Positions 3,623 through 42,357 of a stretch of 46,808 bases of DNA are shown here, piece after piece. The translations under genes were made by a program, and so were the position numbers. The notes beneath the pieces are model-generated. The model saw only the letters and a list, made by a program, of their open reading frames with translations. It did no database searches and was not told where the DNA came from. Numbering within the stretch: position 1 is the first letter of the stretch; every line of letters begins with the position of its first letter. Source of the stretch: an uncultured Pseudomonadota bacterium (GTDB taxonomy: Bacteria; Pseudomonadota; Alphaproteobacteria; RF32; CAG-239). The stretch spans positions 653-47,460 of the forward strand of contig CADAAN010000011.1 in assembly GCA_902785935.1 (NCBI GenBank). Direction: 5' to 3'.

Positions 3623-4552
3623 TTATCGATACCTTATCTTGACGTGGTTTGTCTTGCCGGCCACTTGATTGGCCTCATCGATGGTATAAATTCGACGTTT
3701 CGGCTTTGCTTGTTTTTGTTCTGACTTTTGTTTCCATGCCGGATCAGCCCAGTGATATGTTGTTGTATACGGCACTGTTCTATATTCCCAATCTTCATCA
3801 CTACAACCATCTATTTCAGGATCAAATTTTTCTTCAGGACAATACTCTTCTCTTCTTAATTCTGTTTTTGATAATATGTTACCATACTCATCATATTCAT
3901 ATTCATATTTTTTTTCACCATTGATTGATAATGTGTTTCCGTGATCATCATATTCAGACACAGTAAAATAATCAGGTGAATCCGGAGCCCAAGTATAACG
4001 AAAATCATAGTAATCTTTTTGATACTTCTTATTTTCCACATCATCGTATTCCCATATGGTTACCTCTTCACCATCATAATCATTTCGCATAACCAACCTT
4101 CCTTTATCATCATATATCATCTCCAATATCCTCTCCGAATCAAAATTTTTTGTTTCGCTAGCCAATTTTCCTTGTTCATTATATGTATATATCCACTCGT
4201 AGTCACCAGCCCTTTTGCTAACCAATTTTCCTTGATCATTGTATGTATTTTGATACAAAAATTCCTCATCGTGATGATTTGGTATCACCGGAATGCCGGA
4301 ATCAAAAGTGATGGTACCCGGAAATGTGACTTCATGGGTCACATTTCCTTTATCATCATATTCCCAAATATAATTAAACTCTCCATCTACATCATCTCGT
4401 TGTGCTATTTTATTTCCTTTATCATCATAAAAATAGGTATAACGATCATCGCTGATCAATCTTCCTTTTTCATCATAATAATAATCTGATGCCTTCACAT
4501 CGCATATTATAAAAGTTGCAAGTGAGGTTGCCAAGTATAATACTCTTTTCAT
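3623..4552 (-). CDS. Secreted YD-repeat protein with conserved IRYR C-terminal tail
   Basis: The function is not recognised. The 309-residue product begins with a Sec signal peptide of about 22 residues. Almost the whole mature region is degenerate YD/RHS-like repeats of 18 to 25 residues (YYYDEKGRLISD, YFYDDKGNKIAQ, WEYDDKGNVTHE, YNDQGKLVSK, YEYDEYGNILSK), the carbohydrate-binding-type repeat of RHS and wall-associated proteins. There is no RHS core domain or toxin tip. The last 25 residues (IYTIDEANQ, VAGKTN, KIRYR) form a tail shared with the two leucine-rich-repeat proteins in this window. The start ATG follows AGGAGAAAAAAAT. A structured, terminator-bearing leader of about 375 nt precedes it. 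A surface or secreted role is inferred. Confidence 0.8.
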   Translation of the reverse strand: MKRVLYLATSLATFIICDVKASDYYYDEKGRLISDDRYTYFYDDKGNKIAQRDDVDGEFNYIWEYDDKGNVTHEVTFPGTITFDSGIPVIPNHHDEEFLYQNTYNDQGKLVSKRAGDYEWIYTYNEQGKLASETKNFDSERILEMIYDDKGRLVMRNDYDGEEVTIWEYDDVENKKYQKDYYDFRYTWAPDSPDYFTVSEYDDHGNTLSINGEKKYEYEYDEYGNILSKTELRREEYCPEEKFDPEIDGCSDEDWEYRTVPYTTTYHWADPAWKQKSEQKQAKPKRRIYTIDEANQVAGKTNHVKIRYR

Positions 4553-10949: not shown

Positions 10950-11552
10950 TCAATATTCCCTTATCATAAGCTGCAAATAGCATTCACCGGCCGAACACTC
11001 TTGTTTGCAGTTTTCTGCAATAGATGAAATTGATGGTCTGTCTTGTGCAGAAGAATATCGTACACCATTTCCACCAATACCGAAAATAGGATTTTGGCCA
11101 CCATAACGATCGTGTCCCCATTCAACCGGTACAGCACTTTCCCAATTTGCAGATGTAAAAGCTGTGCAAGAATTTTCATCATTAAAATGTAAGAGCAGGA
11201 CGCCGGCTAAATATTGTCCATAGTTGCTGAGGTCTGTTTCTATAAAACCAATTGGTAATTGGCATCCGGAATCTGCTAAAGCAGTGTCATATTCCACTGG
11301 ATTGCAATCAGGCATAAGACCATATTGAGTTATACTTTCAGCACTGTTAATCACAAAATCCGCACCTAAATTTTGCCCATCAAGTTCAATAATTCTTTGA
11401 ATGACTTGATTATAAATTTCAATTGACTGATTTACTTTGTATTTAAACATTGCATTAGAATAACCTTTAAGCGCACCGGCACTTAACACACCGATAATTG
11501 CTAAAACACCGAGCATTTCGACCATACTTCTGCCATTATCATTATTTTTCAT
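10950..11552 (-). CDS. Type IV pilin-like / pseudopilin protein
   Basis: The 200-residue product has a class III (prepilin) N-terminus: a short basic leader, the cleavage region around GRSMVEML, glutamate at mature position 5, and a hydrophobic helix (VLAIIGVLSAGALKGY). The globular part has several cysteines, including CKQECSAGEC near the C-terminus, suggesting disulphides. It lacks the IRYR tail of the other secreted proteins here. No pilus assembly genes lie nearby, so it may use machinery elsewhere. The start ATG follows AGGAGAAAAAAT. A type I structured leader with a terminator precedes it, shared with the gene at 42357. Confidence 0.82.
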   Translation of the reverse strand: MKNNDNGRSMVEMLGVLAIIGVLSAGALKGYSNAMFKYKVNQSIEIYNQVIQRIIELDGQNLGADFVINSAESITQYGLMPDCNPVEYDTALADSGCQLPIGFIETDLSNYGQYLAGVLLLHFNDENSCTAFTSANWESAVPVEWGHDRYGGQNPIFGIGGNGVRYSSAQDRPSISSIAENCKQECSAGECYLQLMIREY

Positions 11553-31114: not shown

Positions 31115-32107
31115 ATGAAAAAATGGATTTTGATTTTAATAATATCGCTTTTATCCTTCGTATTAATGAACAAATCATTGGCATCACAAACATGGGATTG
31201 CGGCGATCAAGGTAATAATGTTGTTTGCACCCTTGATGATGATGGAACGTTTACTGTTTCCGGAAGCGGTAAAATGCAAAATTATGATACCTACGAGTAT
31301 GATTCAGGTCTTCCTAGTACCACTGCACCATGGGGCGGTGGTAGATCAATATTGTCCAATATTAAAAATATTATTATCGAAGAAGGGGTAACAAATGTAG
31401 GTAGTGCAGCCTTTGCTGGAACAACTCAAAATGAAAGTATTTCAATACCAAAAAGTGTAACTGATATTGAAAGTTATGCATTTTATGATAATTATGCGCT
31501 AAAAAGTCTTTATCTGCCCAATGTTAAAAATATAGGAGTTAGTGCGTTTTCATTTCCTTTTTCGCTTGAAAGTATTGATATGCCAAATATTGAGTATATC
31601 GCTTCTACAAATTTTTTTCTTAATACATGGGACCCTTCCAATTTGAAATATGTCGGTTTGCCGGATGGGGTGACTTTGGCTGGAAATGTTTTTGGCGGAA
31701 CGGCCGTTGCTTCATGCGGAAGAGATGGCGGGAGTTGTCTTGACTGTGCAGATGGAGAAAGTTATAAAGCAGATACGGGGTGTGTTGCCGATTGCGGCGA
31801 CGGATTTGTTGTCAGAAATCGTTTTTGTATATCTTCAGAAAAGGGTTGCGGTACAGGATATTATAACAAAAACGGCACATGTACATTAAATCCTAAGGGT
31901 TGCGAAACTTATGCTGACGACAAATGCTCGGCTTGTTCTCAAGGATATCTCTCAAAAGGCGACGGTTGTGTTGATTCTGCCGTCGGTTGTGGTGATGGTT
32001 ACAAGGCAGTCGATAAAACCTGTAAACGAAAATACTTAATCTATACCATTGAAGAGGCCAATGCTGTGGCGGGAAAGACAAATACTGTATCGATTCGTTA
32101 CAGGTAA
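31115..32107 (+). CDS. Secreted leucine-rich-repeat (BspA-like) protein with cysteine-rich region and IRYR C-terminal tail
   Basis: The function is not recognised. The 330-residue product starts at ATG 31115, which follows GGAGAAAAAAT; a signal peptide (MKKWILILIISLLSFVLMNK) comes first. Residues 30-215 hold BspA-type leucine-rich repeats of family LRR_5 (NIIIEEGVTNVGSAAFAG, SISIPKSVTDIESYAFYD). Residues 215-300 are cysteine-rich with EGF-like spacing (CLDCADGESYKADTGCVADCGDGF and further pairs). The last 25 residues (IYTIEEANAVAGKTN, then SIRYR) are the tail shared with the YD-repeat protein and the second LRR protein. Surface display or secretion is inferred. A type II leader controls it. 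Confidence 0.82.
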   Translation: MKKWILILIISLLSFVLMNKSLASQTWDCGDQGNNVVCTLDDDGTFTVSGSGKMQNYDTYEYDSGLPSTTAPWGGGRSILSNIKNIIIEEGVTNVGSAAFAGTTQNESISIPKSVTDIESYAFYDNYALKSLYLPNVKNIGVSAFSFPFSLESIDMPNIEYIASTNFFLNTWDPSNLKYVGLPDGVTLAGNVFGGTAVASCGRDGGSCLDCADGESYKADTGCVADCGDGFVVRNRFCISSEKGCGTGYYNKNGTCTLNPKGCETYADDKCSACSQGYLSKGDGCVDSAVGCGDGYKAVDKTCKRKYLIYTIEEANAVAGKTNTVSIRYR

Positions 32108-32911: not shown

Positions 32912-35128
32912 TTATTCTTGCCTGACGACAGCTGGTTCATCTTCTTCAAAGGTATCAGCATCTGCATTCGGGTCATAATCAATGCCAAGCTTTGAAAGCA
33001 TATCGTCATTGATGTCTTCACGCTGAGCCACAACCCAATCCGGCACGTTCGGGCAAGGCTTCAAAGCCGCCAGTTTTTTCATTTTCGGATCAAGATACCA
33101 TCTCGGCGAATCGGCCATAATCGGACGGTCAATATAGCTTTGCATCAACACAACCTGCTTGAGCATCGGAAGGCTCAAAAGTTCCGTTGTCGAAATCACC
33201 GAAATACCTTGCAATTGATAGCTTACATTCTTTGCAAACGGATTATAGTTTTTGCCCATTTGACCTTCGTTGCGCGAAAATGAGGTTGTCTGAACGGTTT
33301 TGTTGCCTATCATCTTTGAAAAACGTTGAGCAGTGACCTCGTTGTTTTGCGACAAAATAACTTTGCACGCCGTGGTTGAAATCACGGTTTCCAAATCATC
33401 TTTGCCGTATTTGCCGGAAATTTGGCCTAAATCTTGTCCGATTAAAAGATATGACACTTTTTGTCCGCGACCGACGGCCGGTCCGTCAATAACAGCTTTT
33501 AATTTCGGCATTTGAGGAAATTCGTCCAAAACGAACAAACAGCCGAACGGCCCCATCTTGCCGTCTGTTTTATTTTCATGCTTGGGCGGGTTTGAAATCA
33601 AATACGAACTCATCAGCTCAATAAACACAGAGCTGATAACGCCAAGTGCACGTGCGTCCGTCTGGTTAATTGAAAGATAAACCGAAATCGGTTTGAAAAC
33701 ACCGGTCACAGGATCTTTGATACCGCGCAAATCCTTAAAATGAAGATCCGAAAAACTTGTTCTGGCCACAACAGCCGCGTTTTTGAAAATATTGATACCG
33801 GCAAATGCGGTTGAAATCACGGAGCCACGCTCTTTATCAGGCATGGCGGAAAGCGAGCTGAGTTCCGTATAACAACGTTGTGCGTAACCATATTTGCGTG
33901 CCTCTTCGACAGCCTCATCCAAAAGGTCATGCATCGGGTCAGCCATAGCGGCCATTTGGTCACCCTCTGCCAAACGGCGCTTAATTTCTTGTGCCTGCTT
34001 GATTTGAGCTTCAGTCAACCATTCCAAAATCATGGCAATACACGATTCTCTGCCAATCCATTTTTCAGGCAACAGATTCCACGTACCTATCGGCAAATAG
34101 TTGTCAATCGTAATCGTCCCGTTCTTCAAATCACTCAACGCTCTCGGTACCATCGGGTCACGCATGTCGTGATAATAACTTTCCAAAACGCGCTTGTCTT
34201 CTTCATCAAGTTTTCCCTCATAAATACGACCGATAAAATAATCATTTGCCCTTGCGCGCTCGCATTTTGATGTAATAAAGTGAATAAAGCCGTTCAATGC
34301 AGCACGACCGGTTTGCGACCAGTGCGGATCAGCGCCGCCTTTCGGATCTTCAACCAAAATATTGCAAATTGAATCGACGTACATATCTCTGTCCGGACCC
34401 ATTTCAGGTAAGGCATTCGGTGACAAAGGATTCCATGAAGGGTAATAAATACCTTCGGAAGGTTTATCCTCAGCACCCCAGTTGATGATAAACACCGGAC
34501 CGACTTTTGCGCGTGCGCCGGAAGTCTTGTAACAAAGCTCAGGCTTAGGGTCGTTGATAATCAAACTCAGGGTCGGCGAATGGAAAATCGTCGGCATCAC
34601 GACACCCACCGTTTTACCTGTACCCGGAGGAGCGCAACAAAGGGTTGAAAGTGTTTCTTTAAGCAAAAGCAAACGCCCGTTGAATTTGCCGACAACCTGA
34701 CAAAAGCCGTCATAACCCAAAAGTTCCATCTTTTCAATATCACGCGCCGTTGCAATACGCGCTGAACCATGTACGTTTGACTGAAATCGATACGGACACG
34801 AAACGCCGCCGACAATCAACCCCAAAGGCAATGAAATCGCCGGCAAAATAGGAACCCATCTGCTGATTGAAAATTCATTTGTTGCTGAAAGCTTGTGCAT
34901 CCAGCGTGAATATTGCTTAAACAAAAATGTCGGATGATCAAAGACGGCATTGATAAACATCTTGACGCTTTGCATATTTTCTTTTGAAATGCCATGCTCA
35001 AGCAAAAAAGACATCGGCAATGAAAAAATGGTGAGCAAAACGGTGACTGTCATCGTAATAATCATCGTCATGGCCATCCAGCGGACAGCCTTGTCATATT
35101 CTTCCCACTCAACACCTCTTTGTTTCAT
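32912..35128 (-). CDS. VirD4/TraG-type conjugation coupling protein (type IV secretion ATPase)
   Basis: The 738-residue protein has two N-terminal membrane helices, then Walker A in CCAPPGTGKTVGVVMP, the VirD4-specific SLIINDPKPELCYKTSG and YYPSWNPLSPNALP, a Walker B in LFVLDEFPQMPKL, and SYLLIGQDLGQISGKYG. These fit TraG/VirD4 and the IVB (DotL/TrbC) coupling proteins, which recruit substrates to a type IV secretion channel. Start ATG 35128 overlaps the upstream stop (TGATG); a TTG one codon upstream is less likely. No relaxase or VirB/Dot channel genes lie in this window, so the channel would be elsewhere. Confidence 0.9.
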   Translation of the reverse strand: MKQRGVEWEEYDKAVRWMAMTMIITMTVTVLLTIFSLPMSFLLEHGISKENMQSVKMFINAVFDHPTFLFKQYSRWMHKLSATNEFSISRWVPILPAISLPLGLIVGGVSCPYRFQSNVHGSARIATARDIEKMELLGYDGFCQVVGKFNGRLLLLKETLSTLCCAPPGTGKTVGVVMPTIFHSPTLSLIINDPKPELCYKTSGARAKVGPVFIINWGAEDKPSEGIYYPSWNPLSPNALPEMGPDRDMYVDSICNILVEDPKGGADPHWSQTGRAALNGFIHFITSKCERARANDYFIGRIYEGKLDEEDKRVLESYYHDMRDPMVPRALSDLKNGTITIDNYLPIGTWNLLPEKWIGRESCIAMILEWLTEAQIKQAQEIKRRLAEGDQMAAMADPMHDLLDEAVEEARKYGYAQRCYTELSSLSAMPDKERGSVISTAFAGINIFKNAAVVARTSFSDLHFKDLRGIKDPVTGVFKPISVYLSINQTDARALGVISSVFIELMSSYLISNPPKHENKTDGKMGPFGCLFVLDEFPQMPKLKAVIDGPAVGRGQKVSYLLIGQDLGQISGKYGKDDLETVISTTACKVILSQNNEVTAQRFSKMIGNKTVQTTSFSRNEGQMGKNYNPFAKNVSYQLQGISVISTTELLSLPMLKQVVLMQSYIDRPIMADSPRWYLDPKMKKLAALKPCPNVPDWVVAQREDINDDMLSKLGIDYDPNADADTFEEDEPAVVRQE

Positions 35129-36576
35129 CAATCTTTCCTAGGGTTTAATTGTTTTAATACTTTTTTGAGTTCGGCCATATCATCGCGGGACATCGGTTTT
35201 TCGGCGGCATCTATCGCCTTAGCAAACGGTTTTAATTCCGTAGGTCCGCCGCGTGATACTCTGACAACGTTGATATCCATTTCTGCCCATACATCAAGCA
35301 TATCTTCCGCATTGATGATATTGGCCGCCGAAATAACAAGATAAGCCTTAATGTCACAATCAATATCCGTATCGCCGATTGCTTCTTCCAAAGCGTCACG
35401 TGCGAGCTCAATCTTTCTGACGGGTGAAATTCGATGGCTGTTTTCCGAAAACCATAACGGTTCTTCATCATTAAAGCGTTCTTCATCAGCAAGCCAATCA
35501 CCCGGCTCATTGTCAAACATACACAAAATGATTGTTCCGTCCGACACACCTATATAATCAATTGTTGCACGTTTAATCTGAACATTTTTCAAAACACTGT
35601 AACCATTATCTTCAAGCATTGAAACGGTAGCATTTGAACTGCCGGATTTTTGAGGCTTATCATCTCTTGAATCGCGCTTTGAGTGCCTGTCATTGTCCGA
35701 GCGATTTTGTCTGTCATAACGTTCGTTTTTCGAACGACCGGCGCGAATATCTCCATCTCTGCTGTCTCTTTTAGGCTTAGATGACCGTGCGGGACGATAT
35801 TCTTCAACATCGTCATCATCATAATCATCCATGTCAAACGTCTTCTTGGCAGGTTTTGTATTTTCAAAATGGCGCGGCGGTGCCTGATAGGGCTCTTCAT
35901 CGTCAAAATCATCAACGGCGGCTTGTTTTTTATTCTTCTCGGAATCAATTTTGAAAATATCCGATTTATCAAACGAATCGATATCCAAGTCAAAATCATC
36001 GCTGCCGTCATCTATGTCAAAAATTGTATGATTTAAGGCTTCTCTTGTTGCAGTGGCTCTGTTCTTCGTCGGATTTGAATCATAACTCAAGGCAGGTGCA
36101 GGCGCGGGTGTTTGTGCCTGCGGCGTCACTTGAACGGGAACGGCTTGCGGCGTGCTGTAATCATAAATCGGTACACGCTTGCCTGTCGGACGAACTTCTT
36201 TATATGATTTGCGCTTTTGAACGACCGGAGTCGGCATTGCCGCATATTTTAATGGCTCAACCGATCCTTTAATCAATTTAATCGGAAGTGTCACAATTTT
36301 ATAAATAATCTTTTCCCATGGTACCAAGCTGAGCGCAATCCAACCCGTCAGCCAAAGCGGGATAAAAGTCAGTAAAATCAAAACAAATGCCCATTCTTTC
36401 GGGGTATCAATCACCCAACCCGACATCCAAAGATTATAGGCATATGCCCAGTGCGGAGGCCAAAAAATGTCAAAACGCCAGTTTTCAAGCACAATAACAC
36501 GCACGCCTTCAATGAAGATGATACTCCAAAGGCATCCGACAAAAGTGATTCGTGCTAAAACAAGTAGGGGTTTCAA
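35128..36576 (-). CDS. Membrane protein with disordered linker and nuclease-like C-terminal domain
   Basis: The 482-residue protein has two N-terminal membrane helices (residues 5-100; WSIIFIEGVRVIVLENW and FVLILLTFIPLWLTGWIALSL). Residues 150-320 are low-complexity and disordered: Pro/Gln-rich, then Asp-rich, then Arg/Asp/Ser-rich (RSKNERYDRQNRSDNDRHSK). The C-terminal 150 residues (ATVSMLEDNGYSVLKNV, TIDYIGVSDGTIILCMF) look like a restriction-endonuclease-like/NERD fold, but the usual E-x-K is not seen, so it may be inactive. The membrane domain resembles that of the next gene upstream (36635). It is translationally coupled to the coupling protein. The role is unknown. Confidence 0.65.
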   Translation of the reverse strand: MKPLLVLARITFVGCLWSIIFIEGVRVIVLENWRFDIFWPPHWAYAYNLWMSGWVIDTPKEWAFVLILLTFIPLWLTGWIALSLVPWEKIIYKIVTLPIKLIKGSVEPLKYAAMPTPVVQKRKSYKEVRPTGKRVPIYDYSTPQAVPVQVTPQAQTPAPAPALSYDSNPTKNRATATREALNHTIFDIDDGSDDFDLDIDSFDKSDIFKIDSEKNKKQAAVDDFDDEEPYQAPPRHFENTKPAKKTFDMDDYDDDDVEEYRPARSSKPKRDSRDGDIRAGRSKNERYDRQNRSDNDRHSKRDSRDDKPQKSGSSNATVSMLEDNGYSVLKNVQIKRATIDYIGVSDGTIILCMFDNEPGDWLADEERFNDEEPLWFSENSHRISPVRKIELARDALEEAIGDTDIDCDIKAYLVISAANIINAEDMLDVWAEMDINVVRVSRGGPTELKPFAKAIDAAEKPMSRDDMAELKKVLKQLNPRKD

Positions 36577-36634
36577 CGTTCTCTCCTGTTGTTTTTGATG
36601 ATCATACTATAAATCAGATTAATTAACAAGAGAT

Positions 36635-37132
36635 TTATTTTCCTTTTTGTTTATTTATTTTTTGTGAAATATTGTGTCTTAAAATTTCAGATTCCTTTTG
36701 CGCGGGCGAGGCAGATTTTTCTTCCTTGATTTTCTGATTGATTAAGTCCTCAACCGTCATCTTTTCACCGACGACCAAATTTTTAATGACGACATGCTTG
36801 CCTTCGCTTTCGTATTTTTCAATTTGTTTTTTATTGAAATATTCAAACGGACGCAAAAAAAGTTTAACATAATCGGTATGATAAAGCTTTTTAAATCCGA
36901 TATACCAAACAAGCAAAACAACCGACAGCGTGATAAAAAGCATATAGTCGGACAAACCTTTAATCACACCGTTTTGCTGCCAAAATGCACGCACTACCTG
37001 CCATTGTTTTAAGGATATGTAATTAAAGTTCCAGATACGCAAAATAATTTGTTGTGTCAAGGCAACCCAAAATGTTGACCACAACACGCCTATTATCAAA
37101 AACTTTAATAAATGCCCGATTTTTTTGAACAT
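36635..37132 (-). CDS. Small membrane protein, paralogous to the N-terminus of the neighbouring 482-aa protein
   Basis: The 165-residue protein has two membrane helices (IIGVLWSTFWVALTQQIILRIW and FITLSVVLLVWYIGF). The pattern GxLWS, W-F, W at about residue 47 and W at about residue 52 matches the N-terminus of the neighbouring 482-residue protein (GCLWSIIFIEGVRVIVLENW). The C-terminus is charged and helical (EDLINQKIKEEK). It lies 3 nt after the 727-residue gene. I propose it is a shortened partner of the 482-residue protein. Function unknown. Confidence 0.65.
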   Translation of the reverse strand: MFKKIGHLLKFLIIGVLWSTFWVALTQQIILRIWNFNYISLKQWQVVRAFWQQNGVIKGLSDYMLFITLSVVLLVWYIGFKKLYHTDYVKLFLRPFEYFNKKQIEKYESEGKHVVIKNLVVGEKMTVEDLINQKIKEEKSASPAQKESEILRHNISQKINKQKGK

Positions 37133-37135
37133 AGC

Positions 37136-39319
37136 TTAGCGCTCTTTTTTATCATAGCCCATCAAACCGAGTGTTGTTCCCGAAAACAGACGGGAAGGAT
37201 TGAGCGGATTTTTTGCCTTAGCTTCCTTAACGCGGCGCTTACGCTCTTCAACAGAATCACGTCCTCTCGGGTTCTTTAAATCCTCCGCCATCACTTCCAA
37301 AGGCATAGCAGTCGTATAGCTTCTCGCCTCTTCTTCCAATGTCCTTTTATCGAGTGTCTCGTCTTGTTTTTTGCCGAAGAATTTGGTATATCCCACACCC
37401 TTATCAATGATTTTTTCAGTTTCTTTATCAGCCTCGCCAATGATATCTTTAACATCATCATTCGGTGCCCGCGAAATGGCATCAAAACGTTCATTATCTA
37501 CAAATTCGGCCTGCTTTTGGGTCGCTTTTTGAACCTTTTGAACCATTTCATCGAGATACGTGTTGACTTTAAGCGCAGAGTATGTCTGAGATATCTCATC
37601 AGGTGACATGCTTTCTTTGTTCTTGTCAAATTTTTTGCGATCTTTTATCAAGCTCTCACGCCTGATTTCAGAAGTCTCGGGATTGTTGATTAAGGCATCA
37701 TATTCATCTGATATATTTTTCTTAATCCATGCCTCTTTTTCTTCCTTCGTTGTCAATTTGCCGTATTCGGACTTGGCCAAACCGCGAGCATCCTCAGACA
37801 AGGTGCGAATGGCAATCATAATTTTTTCCATACGCTTTTGACTACGTTCAACAAAGCCCTTATCGCCGGCAATCAGTTCATCATCTGACAAATATTTACC
37901 CGTTAAGCTGTCACGCCATTTTTTATCGGAACGCATCATTTCATCAACCATCTCAAGACGCGTCAGCATCATAGCACATTGACCGGCGGCTTTGATGTTG
38001 CCGACAACATATTGTACATCTTGCTCGGATAGTTTTTTCAAACTATCCATCTTTTTCGGATCTGCTTTAAATGCGCTGATGAGATTATCGCCGTATTTTT
38101 CTCTTAACTGACGTTCTTGTTCATGAGTCATCGCGGCAAAATCAATATTTTGCAAATCTTTTTTCAGATTAATAAATCTTTGAGCATATAAAGGCGCATT
38201 TTTTGTAAAGTTATTCAGTAAACCATTTGTTTCATTGTTGAATAATGTGGTTTTATCCAATGTCGGTTTCAAATTCGGTTTAGTCGTTTCTTTGGCTTTT
38301 TTCGCCGTCCTTGTTGACAAACTTCTTATGCCGTCGCCTGCCATATCAAGGGCGATATCGACACATTCTTCCAACTTATCACAGCCCCAGCTCATCAAGC
38401 CGAGGAACCAGTCTTCATACATATATTTGATGATATCTTCATCTTTGAACTTATCGCCTTTATGGTCACGGCCTAAGTGTTTATTGCGATTTTCATCAAC
38501 ATTTGCAAGCTCTGCTTCTTTTTTATCACCTTCCAAAAGTTTTTTCTGCTCAACTGTTAACGGTTTGCCCTGATACTGAGCAAGTTTAGCAGCTTCAACG
38601 GTTGTCGGAGCCGCCACGGGCGCTTGCATAAAGCTTCGTTTTTGAGCGCTTTCTTTTGTATCGTTGAGCTTAACTCCGGTATGCCCGATGGATTTATTAT
38701 CTCTGATTTTTAAGCACATATCCATCAGCTCATCAACTTTTTGGCCTGAAAAATTGCGGCTGTTATGATTAGCTCCGTATGTTGTGTACAATCCGGCATA
38801 AAAAGCACCCGATTGCTCAAGATGCGATTTCATGGCATTTCGAGTGGCTTGTTCTTTTGAGGCATCTGCAAAAAGAGGATGTTCTTTATCTTTGATAATC
38901 GTGCCCATCATATGGATATTTTTAACCATTTGCGTGCCGACAATTTCACCATTTTCTAACATAGCGTTATCCAAAAAATAATTTGCCGCTGTGCGGGGTT
39001 TACCTTCTATGGTCTTTGTCTGTCCGTGTTGCACAAGTTCAATTTTTGTGAGATTGTCTAAAAGGGTTGTTAAATCTTTTTGCGCCTTTTGGCTTGAATA
39101 CAGAATCTGTCCGACATCGCCGTTTGCTTCAAATTGTGTTTTTAAATCCGGCAATTTAATGTTGCTGACAAATCCGTAATTTTTAAGCAATTCAGGCTCT
39201 TTTTTAATCATTTCGGCCGCACTTTTTAATTGCTCATCAGAAATATCTTTTTGGCTCAAAACATCAAAAAGCATTTTTGCTTTTTCAATTTGTTCATCAT
39301 TTTTTAATTCTTCTGCCAT
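37136..39319 (-). CDS. Large helical protein of unknown function in the coupling-protein cluster (727 aa)
   Basis: I do not recognise this protein. It is soluble, highly charged and predicted helical throughout (EKEAWIKKNISDEYDALINN, RSQKRMEKIMIAIRTLSEDA). There is no signal peptide, no membrane segment and no relaxase or nucleotide-binding motif. The C-terminus is basic (RKRRVKEAKAKNPLNPSR). Its position in a coupling-protein operon would fit a cytosolic adaptor or a secreted substrate. Codon use and composition match its neighbours. Confidence 0.65.
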   Translation of the reverse strand: MAEELKNDEQIEKAKMLFDVLSQKDISDEQLKSAAEMIKKEPELLKNYGFVSNIKLPDLKTQFEANGDVGQILYSSQKAQKDLTTLLDNLTKIELVQHGQTKTIEGKPRTAANYFLDNAMLENGEIVGTQMVKNIHMMGTIIKDKEHPLFADASKEQATRNAMKSHLEQSGAFYAGLYTTYGANHNSRNFSGQKVDELMDMCLKIRDNKSIGHTGVKLNDTKESAQKRSFMQAPVAAPTTVEAAKLAQYQGKPLTVEQKKLLEGDKKEAELANVDENRNKHLGRDHKGDKFKDEDIIKYMYEDWFLGLMSWGCDKLEECVDIALDMAGDGIRSLSTRTAKKAKETTKPNLKPTLDKTTLFNNETNGLLNNFTKNAPLYAQRFINLKKDLQNIDFAAMTHEQERQLREKYGDNLISAFKADPKKMDSLKKLSEQDVQYVVGNIKAAGQCAMMLTRLEMVDEMMRSDKKWRDSLTGKYLSDDELIAGDKGFVERSQKRMEKIMIAIRTLSEDARGLAKSEYGKLTTKEEKEAWIKKNISDEYDALINNPETSEIRRESLIKDRKKFDKNKESMSPDEISQTYSALKVNTYLDEMVQKVQKATQKQAEFVDNERFDAISRAPNDDVKDIIGEADKETEKIIDKGVGYTKFFGKKQDETLDKRTLEEEARSYTTAMPLEVMAEDLKNPRGRDSVEERKRRVKEAKAKNPLNPSRLFSGTTLGLMGYDKKER

Positions 39320-41415: not shown

Positions 41416-42357
41416 TTATCTGTACCTTATCTTGACCGAATTGACTTTGCCTGCGACTTCATTCGCCTCATCGATGGTATAAATGCGCTTTGGAATATAG
41501 TTGCCTGAGGCTAAATCATCAAGTGAAGCATATGTTTTACCACCTGCCTTTATCTGCCCGTTTTCATCTATGCTGTATGGAATGATGTCCGGGGCAACAC
41601 CTTGAAAAGAATAGCCACACGCATTATCCTTCGGGCAATAAATGGTATCCAGTCCGGAACGATAAAAAGCGGTGGCGTCAATTCCTGTTATATTCCCGTC
41701 AGCATCTAAGAGCGAATCGGATATAACAATGCGTTTTAACCCCGTGGCATCCTGAAAGGCTTTCTTTCCAATTGTTTGCACACCGGTCAGGTCAACGCTT
41801 GTCAACCCTGTGGCACCATTAAAGGCACCCTCTCCGATTGTTTGCACACCGGTCAGGTCAACGCTTGTCAACCCTGTGGCATTTTCAAAGGCAGCATCTC
41901 CGATTGTTTGCACACCTGAAAGGTCAAGATGCCCTGTCAAACCCGTGGCTTGTGCAAAGGCATAATCTCCGATTGTTTGCACACCGGTCAGGTCAACGCT
42001 TGTCAAATTAGTGGCAATTTCAAAGGCATCCCCTCCGATATTCACATTGCCGGATGTTTTAAGCGATGTAACACCTTCAGGAACAGTTGACTTCCAAGAT
42101 CCGTCATAAAAAAGGAAAGCCAGATCCGGCACGATGGCGGCATTGCTCTCCGATCCTTTTGTGCCATAAATGGTCATCGTTTGATTGCCCTCATCACCGC
42201 TTAAAGCATAGTATGTACCGGAATTTCCGATTTCAACGCAATTGCTTTCTCCCGCGTCGCGGGCGCAATTGTCGAGTGATGATGTATCATCCGCTCTCGC
42301 CATTGTGGCAAAAAAAGTGCTAAGCATTAATGCACATATAAATTGACTTTTTTTCAT
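41416..42357 (-). CDS. Secreted leucine-rich-repeat (BspA-like) protein with IRYR C-terminal tail
   Basis: The 313-residue product has a signal peptide (MKKSQFICALMLSTFFATMARA), a short region with two cysteines (CARDAGESNC), then LRR_5-type repeats at about residues 110-215. Four consecutive repeats are nearly identical (LTSVDLTGVQTIG then AF and ATG). The C-terminus ends with IYTIDEANEVAGKVN then VKIRYR, the tail it shares with the genes at 3623 and 31115. The start ATG follows AGGAGAAAAAAT. A type I leader with a terminator precedes it, the same family as that of the pilin-like gene. Surface display is inferred; ligand unknown. Confidence 0.83.
   Translation of the reverse strand: MKKSQFICALMLSTFFATMARADDTSSLDNCARDAGESNCVEIGNSGTYYALSGDEGNQTMTIYGTKGSESNAAIVPDLAFLFYDGSWKSTVPEGVTSLKTSGNVNIGGDAFEIATNLTSVDLTGVQTIGDYAFAQATGLTGHLDLSGVQTIGDAAFENATGLTSVDLTGVQTIGEGAFNGATGLTSVDLTGVQTIGKKAFQDATGLKRIVISDSLLDADGNITGIDATAFYRSGLDTIYCPKDNACGYSFQGVAPDIIPYSIDENGQIKAGGKTYASLDDLASGNYIPKRIYTIDEANEVAGKVNSVKIRYR
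41771..42010. repeat. Near-identical 66-69 bp tandem repeats coding for the leucine-rich repeats
   Basis: The block ATTGTTTGCACACC-GGTCAGGTCAACGC recurs at 41771, 41837, 41903 (with changes) and 41972. The units are almost identical in DNA, so copy number can change by recombination or replication slippage, altering the length of the protein. Confidence 0.85.

Follow-up and report, generated by a model that had tools for sequence, protein, structure and literature searches.

A conserved C-terminal tail on exported repeat proteins of an uncultured alphaproteobacterium resembles type IV pilin C-termini and may be part of a split pilin

The LPXTG, PEP-CTERM and T9SS CTD tags are C-terminal elements that consist either of a transmembrane helix followed by basic residues or of a folded C-terminal domain (CTD). 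In chaperone-usher pili, Ig-fold subunits are assembled by donor-strand complementation with an N-terminal donor strand. MYXO-CTERM is a C-terminal sorting tag as well (PMC11980579). The pilin of Geobacter sulfurreducens is made of two chains, PilA-N and PilA-C, which are encoded by adjacent genes and of which the C-terminal partner has a signal peptide (PMC5174107); the two chains are described as a heterodimer (PMC11046646). PilB of Streptococcus sanguinis is a modular pilin; by its description, module and pilin form a single polypeptide (PMC8179133). The flexible N-terminus of the protein TcpF is bound by the TcpB trimer, in one of its clefts (PMC9565799).

Here we analyzed a window of 46,808 nucleotides (the whole stretch of DNA under study) from an uncultured Pseudomonadota bacterium, in which proteins with different repeats end in the same short tail. 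A literature search on rumen Alphaproteobacteria with LRR proteins and C-terminal tails, and on the term 'split pilin', found no such system.

The tail and the proteins that carry it

The ORF translations show that three proteins of the window end in IYTI[DE]EANxVAGKxNxVxIRYR followed by a stop, in agreement with a previous sequence-only reading of this DNA. The genes for P0002 and P0003 are located on the minus strand, a point that was absent from that reading. The features are the following:

31115..32107, plus strand: P0001, exported Cys-rich BspA-type LRR passenger, 330 aa (Pfam LRR_5, PF13306, E 3e-17)
31115..31183, plus strand: predicted Sec signal peptide of P0001, MKKWILILIISLLSFVLMNKSLA (sequence; hydrophobicity scan of carriers)
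32039..32107, plus strand: tail of P0001, IYTIEEANAVAGKTNTVSIRYR and stop, 22 residues (sequence, own-genome search, ORF ends)
3623..4552, minus strand: P0002, exported YD/RHS-repeat passenger, 309 aa (RHS_repeat, E 5.7e-12)
3623..3691, minus strand: tail of P0002, IYTIDEANQVAGKTNHVKIRYR and stop (translation, ORF ends)
41416..42357, minus strand: P0003, exported BspA-type LRR passenger, 313 aa (LRR_5, E 1.7e-30; AlphaFold model)
41416..41484, minus strand: tail of P0003, IYTIDEANEVAGKVNSVKIRYR and stop (translation, ORF ends)

The earlier view that these proteins share no other similarity holds for the YD/RHS protein P0002, which is unrelated to the others; it does not hold for P0001 and P0003, which are both LRR_5 proteins. 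The AlphaFold model of P0003, computed with 11 relatives, contains a confident LRR part (mean pLDDT 84). The tail in the P0003 model has a low confidence (pLDDT about 52-65); the helix alone is formed and no strand.

The recurrence of the tail is far beyond chance. The genome from which the window comes (G000; 1.46 Mb in 73 contigs, read as stretches around the matches) contains 95 copies at E<=1e-3 with the 22-residue query and 119 copies with a profile. All of the 91 unique ORFs from G000 and its relatives end exactly at tail residue 22 plus stop, on LRR as well as on RHS/YD passengers. The proposal that exported proteins of different repeat types share a C-terminal element is borne out. The same reading had expected the motif to lie at C-termini and not to be part of a longer common domain; the tail is indeed located at C-termini and not internally, and a longer stretch before it, DDLxxGNYxxKR, is conserved in just 23 of the 84 carriers of G000, a subset of the LRR carriers. 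Among the 78 ORFs counted as G000, the position directly before the tail (-1) is R in 70 and position -2 is K or R in 63. A hydrophobic N-terminal signal peptide is present in 78 of the 84 full-length carriers in G000. The signal peptides are of the Sec type; the class III signal and hydrophobic helix of type IV pilins are absent from the carriers.

Synonymous codons differ at the conserved residues of the tail (e.g. at A7, where GCC/GCG/GCA/GCT occur 32/22/17/7 times), and the DNA 3' of the stops of the tail genes shows no relationship between copies. Since the codons are free to vary and the downstream DNA is unrelated, the tail is a protein feature with selection on the protein. The same two observations rule out a DNA repeat or a recombination site.

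A Pfam scan of 77 carriers found LRR_5 in 62 and RHS_repeat in 4; the rest match FNIP, MORN or little. No part of the carriers is better conserved than the tail, while the whole proteins are only 21-56% identical to the first row of the alignment. These data bear on the idea that the tail reflects shared ancestry only, i.e. that it is the conserved C-terminus of an expanded family of exported LRR proteins and has no dedicated function. The large share of LRR_5 proteins and the upstream sequence common to 23 of 84 carriers would fit with this. However, at least four carriers have RHS/YD repeats, others match other families or none, and the conservation is highest in the tail itself. We consider an explanation by shared ancestry alone highly improbable.

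The tail does not belong to the sortase, PEP-CTERM or T9SS-type signals. Signatures of the Sortase, PEP-CTERM, GlyGly-CTERM or MYXO-CTERM type with a transmembrane helix gave no NCBIfam match at E<=5, and no CTD model for T9SS in NCBIfam or Pfam matched. There is no hydrophobic run within IYTIDEANxVAGKxNxVxIRYR. The terminal aromatic residue of a BAM beta-signal is absent; the last residue of the tails is R/K/E, preceded by Y/F, and the carriers are LRR or RHS proteins. Putative OMPs of the family end in VRYAF or IKYVF. The earlier statement that the tail matches no known sorting signal holds for the Pfam and NCBIfam models, and so does the one that it has no hydrophobic helix. A basic end is not common to all tails, since the homologous tail in a second genus ends in ...EWIFE.

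A further candidate, in line with the earlier reading, is a separate sorting or anchoring signal at the C-terminus, served by a peptidase or ligase of its own; a likeness to pilins would then be a convergence on a C-terminus that ends in a beta-strand. The strict C-terminal position and the dozens of copies per genome fit a tag, and the basic dipeptide before the tail fits a possible cleavage site. But the tail has neither a hydrophobic segment nor a match to the NCBIfam sorting models, its charged end is not conserved between genera, and the similarity to pilins survives shuffle and permutation controls (see below). It is very unlikely that the tail is a signal of this kind.

Some side observations were made on the surroundings of the tail genes. 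Eleven ORFs of G000 are shorter than 150 aa and contain little more than the tail; they resemble what is left of disrupted carrier genes. Several tail genes, e.g. L046, L049, L050, L062, L070 and L092, have a dispersed repeat 3' of the stop, of the form GATGAGATCCGCGGGACTTCGCCCGCGGATGACA. The region 32912-39319 of the window (minus strand), near the tail-bearing LRR gene, contains a gene for a T4SS coupling protein (T4SS-DNA_transf, E 1.6e-56) and neighbours that have weak or no Pfam matches.

Distribution of the tail

Close relatives in GTDB are the MAGs RUG11221, RGIG5118 (roe deer rumen), RGIG10106 (yak rumen) and RGIG9974 (yak reticulum), and the host is apparently a rumen bacterium. A profile search in the genus of the window (g1) found 116 copies of the tail in G007, 100 in G001, 30 in G010, 17 in G004 and 13 in G009, with lower counts in G003 (12), G006 (10) and G005 (5); there were none in G008 or G002. 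Another genus of this family, g3, has a related but diverged tail, RYTLPEADAATSNDNENMIEWIFE, at the end of the LRR proteins read in G146. A few tails were present in G156, e.g. KKRYTPAEANQWLNDDENIITITYKK. The number of LRR_5 matches is 70 in G146 and 0-1 in the tail-less genomes searched.

A combined tail model matched only the own genome in a class-wide sample of 385 genomes. The g1 model also produced weak matches in other genera, with E values of 0.003-0.1. Most of those inspected are L7Ae/YlxR-like or otherwise unrelated proteins; the exception, an LRR protein of G146, was retained. In these searches the tail occurs in the genus of the window and, in a diverged form, in g3.

Pilin C-termini and truncated pilins

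The type IV pilins of the family share the C-terminal pattern LPxxxxxAxxxC...NxIxWxF/Y, followed by a stop. When the g3 tail model was run over 152 family genomes, it also matched the exact C-terminus of pilin-like proteins in g13 and g4, two genera without the tail. One of these pilins matches PilS (PF08805, E 1.9e-9) and Bundlin; a search by sequence found no PDB relative for it.

This similarity was compared by hhalign, using alignments with rows chosen by us. Tail variants (A10) against pilin C-termini (A11) gave an E value of 1.1e-6, and none of 200 column permutations was as good. The same holds for the g3 tail against pilins (E 1.5e-5, 0/200) and for the g1 against the g3 tail (E 1e-8, 0/200). 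The g1 tail alone against the pilin profile was not significant (11/200 permutations as good); the link to pilins therefore runs through the g3 tail and the divergent tails. With an HMM of the pilin C-terminus, tails have a median score of 3.9 bits and shuffles of -1.7. The tail HMM in turn gives pilin C-termini higher scores than shuffles or the ends of other ORFs. The 11 top-scoring 'background' C-termini were looked up, and nearly all are pilins or pilin-like.

The conserved Cys and Trp of the pilin C-terminal element are not a feature of the tail: the Cys is absent from tails, and the Trp is retained only in the g3 tail (EWIFE) and replaced in g1 (SIRYR). A charge of at least +2 is found in the 6 residues before YT in 84% of tails versus 2% of pilins. 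Homology of the tail to the C-terminal beta-alpha-beta end of type IV pilins is well supported. The nearest relatives are pilin C-termini, and not the sortase or Por-type signals to which the tail had been likened before.

The pilin profile has about 35 matches in G000, one of which lies in the window:

10950..11552, minus strand: full-length pilin-like protein with the N-terminus GRSMVEMLGVLAIIGVLSAGALKGY (N_methyl, E 0.0023, below the Pfam cut-off; profile E 1.5e-22, which is not independent, as the sequence is one row of the profile)

AlphaFold prediction of this pilin from its single sequence gave no usable fold (pLDDT 32). An ATPase of the T2SSE family is present in 14 of 14 family genomes searched. 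As a side observation, a profile of the pilin N-terminus has 150 matches (186 candidates) in the 1.6 Mb genome G026 (g3); in the 20 stretches read, the N-termini are near-identical and the remainder is very variable.

In addition to full-length proteins, there are truncated pilins of 139-165 aa, which stop where the C-terminal element would start. They are present in 11 of 11 tail-bearing genomes (G000, G001, G003, G004, G005, G006, G007, G009, G010, G146 and G156). None was found in 26 tail-less family genomes, in which the pilin frames found are longer and those read have the canonical end; the search used profiles made from truncated pilins, some genomes are incomplete, and G154, which has a tail remnant, was excluded from the comparison. 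The co-occurrence of tail and truncated pilin has a Fisher p of 1e-9 with phylogeny ignored, and genomes of the same genus are not independent. A profile search for the position of the tail and for a partner had been proposed earlier; it confirmed the C-terminal position, and the co-occurring partner that emerged is a truncated pilin. The earlier interpretation as an export, anchoring or maturation signal is partly supported.

G000 has three truncated pilins versus roughly 100 passengers. The last 10 residues are acidic in 14 of 15 truncated pilins. Four of about 15 adjoin a tail gene. In three of these four adjacent pairs, the gene of the truncated pilin comes directly upstream of, and on one strand with, that of an exported protein whose tail is divergent, namely in G000:C1 (LYTTDEALSAVTGNGNNRLSIYFK), G000:C23 (NYTASEAAIAATGHGDNSLSFYFR) and G006:C11 (QYSVQEASELLRDTPDNSITFYFR); in G146 it adjoins a tail-bearing LRR gene in convergent orientation. 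In L419 and L454, truncated pilins are followed by overlapping genes for exported proteins without a recognisable tail. Several genomes of the window's genus have a truncated pilin of another type between fabZ and tolQ (L500, L431, L448-L451; gene names by inspection), in stretches that do not all span both neighbour genes.

The tail could also act as a type IVb-pilus secretion signal, a linear segment which an intact minor pilin recognises at the tip; the carrier would be pushed through the secretin and released, with no complementation of a fold. Secretion of this type is established for TcpF with the TcpB trimer (PMC9565799). One pilin of the family matches PilS (PF08805) and Bundlin, and the tail is common to many repeat proteins of differing fold. 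The known signals are N-terminal, however, and such a signal alone leaves unexplained why the tail is similar to pilin C-termini and why truncated pilins occur in all tail-bearing genomes. A secretion signal of this kind is in our view unlikely.

A proposed split pilin and its relation to known systems

We think it probable that the tail represents the beta-alpha-beta element from the C-terminus of a type IV pilin in detached form, with which the passengers complete a truncated minor pilin, and that they are displayed on, or exported by, the pilus. A split pilin is the simplest account of the sequence similarity, the complementary absence of the element from the truncated pilins, the adjacency of the genes and the charges. 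The T2SSE-family ATPase, the tail without a strand in the P0003 model and the precedent of Geobacter also speak for it. Points against it are the roughly 100 passengers for three truncated pilins in G000, the small share of truncated pilins beside a tail gene, the loss of the pilin Cys and Trp in g1 tails and the g1 comparison, which alone does not beat permutations. The passenger would cross the inner membrane by the Sec pathway and lose its signal peptide; it would then fold and leave its tail without a partner. Once in the periplasm, the tail may complete a truncated minor pilin, whose fold lacks this element. Docking could be guided by the acidic residues at the end of the truncated pilin and by the basic KR that precedes the tail. 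The completed pilin would finally enter the pilus, and the passenger would be displayed on the pilus or carried out by it. Docking onto the truncated pilin, assembly and surface display are steps that we infer.

These sequence relationships suggest that the tail may serve to plug many different proteins into a pilus. We lean slightly towards an arrangement in which the truncated minor pilin is a common socket, to which about a hundred exported proteins bring the missing pilin end as a plug. With one shared socket and many plugs, a single pilus could present a large and exchangeable repertoire of adhesin-like proteins. We know of no other tag of this sort on the scale of a repertoire. If this is true, many separate proteins could be loaded onto type IV pili through a C-terminal tag of 22 residues, the many LRR proteins that these uncultured alphaproteobacteria encode would be linked to pili, and there would be a sequence rule for spotting pilus cargo. 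The pair of tag and socket is open to ordinary biochemistry.

The LPXTG (sortase), PEP-CTERM, MYXO-CTERM and T9SS CTD tags likewise are conserved C-terminal elements on many unrelated exported proteins, but their elements contain either a transmembrane helix that ends in basic residues or a folded CTD; the present tail has neither. Chaperone-usher pili share with our proposal that an incomplete fold is completed by a strand from another protein. However, their subunits have an Ig fold and the donor strand is N-terminal; proteins and machinery are unrelated to those described here. In the type IVb-pilus secretion of TcpF and CofJ, as proposed for the passengers, a short terminal segment of an exported protein engages a minor pilin (PMC9565799). 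There the signal is N-terminal and sits in a cleft between intact minor pilins, whereas here the segment is C-terminal and resembles the pilin's own end. PilB of S. sanguinis is a pilin that carries a large functional module, as would be the case here, but in one single polypeptide, while the passengers described here are encoded separately from the pilin body. The split pilin of Geobacter has, as here, a truncated pilin with the N-terminal helix and a separately encoded C-terminal part with a signal peptide. In Geobacter, one major pilin is split after the helix and has one partner, while here only the last ~22 residues are detached and would come from up to about 100 large passengers. If our reading is true, it would extend split pilins from the one subunit pair of Geobacter to a display platform.
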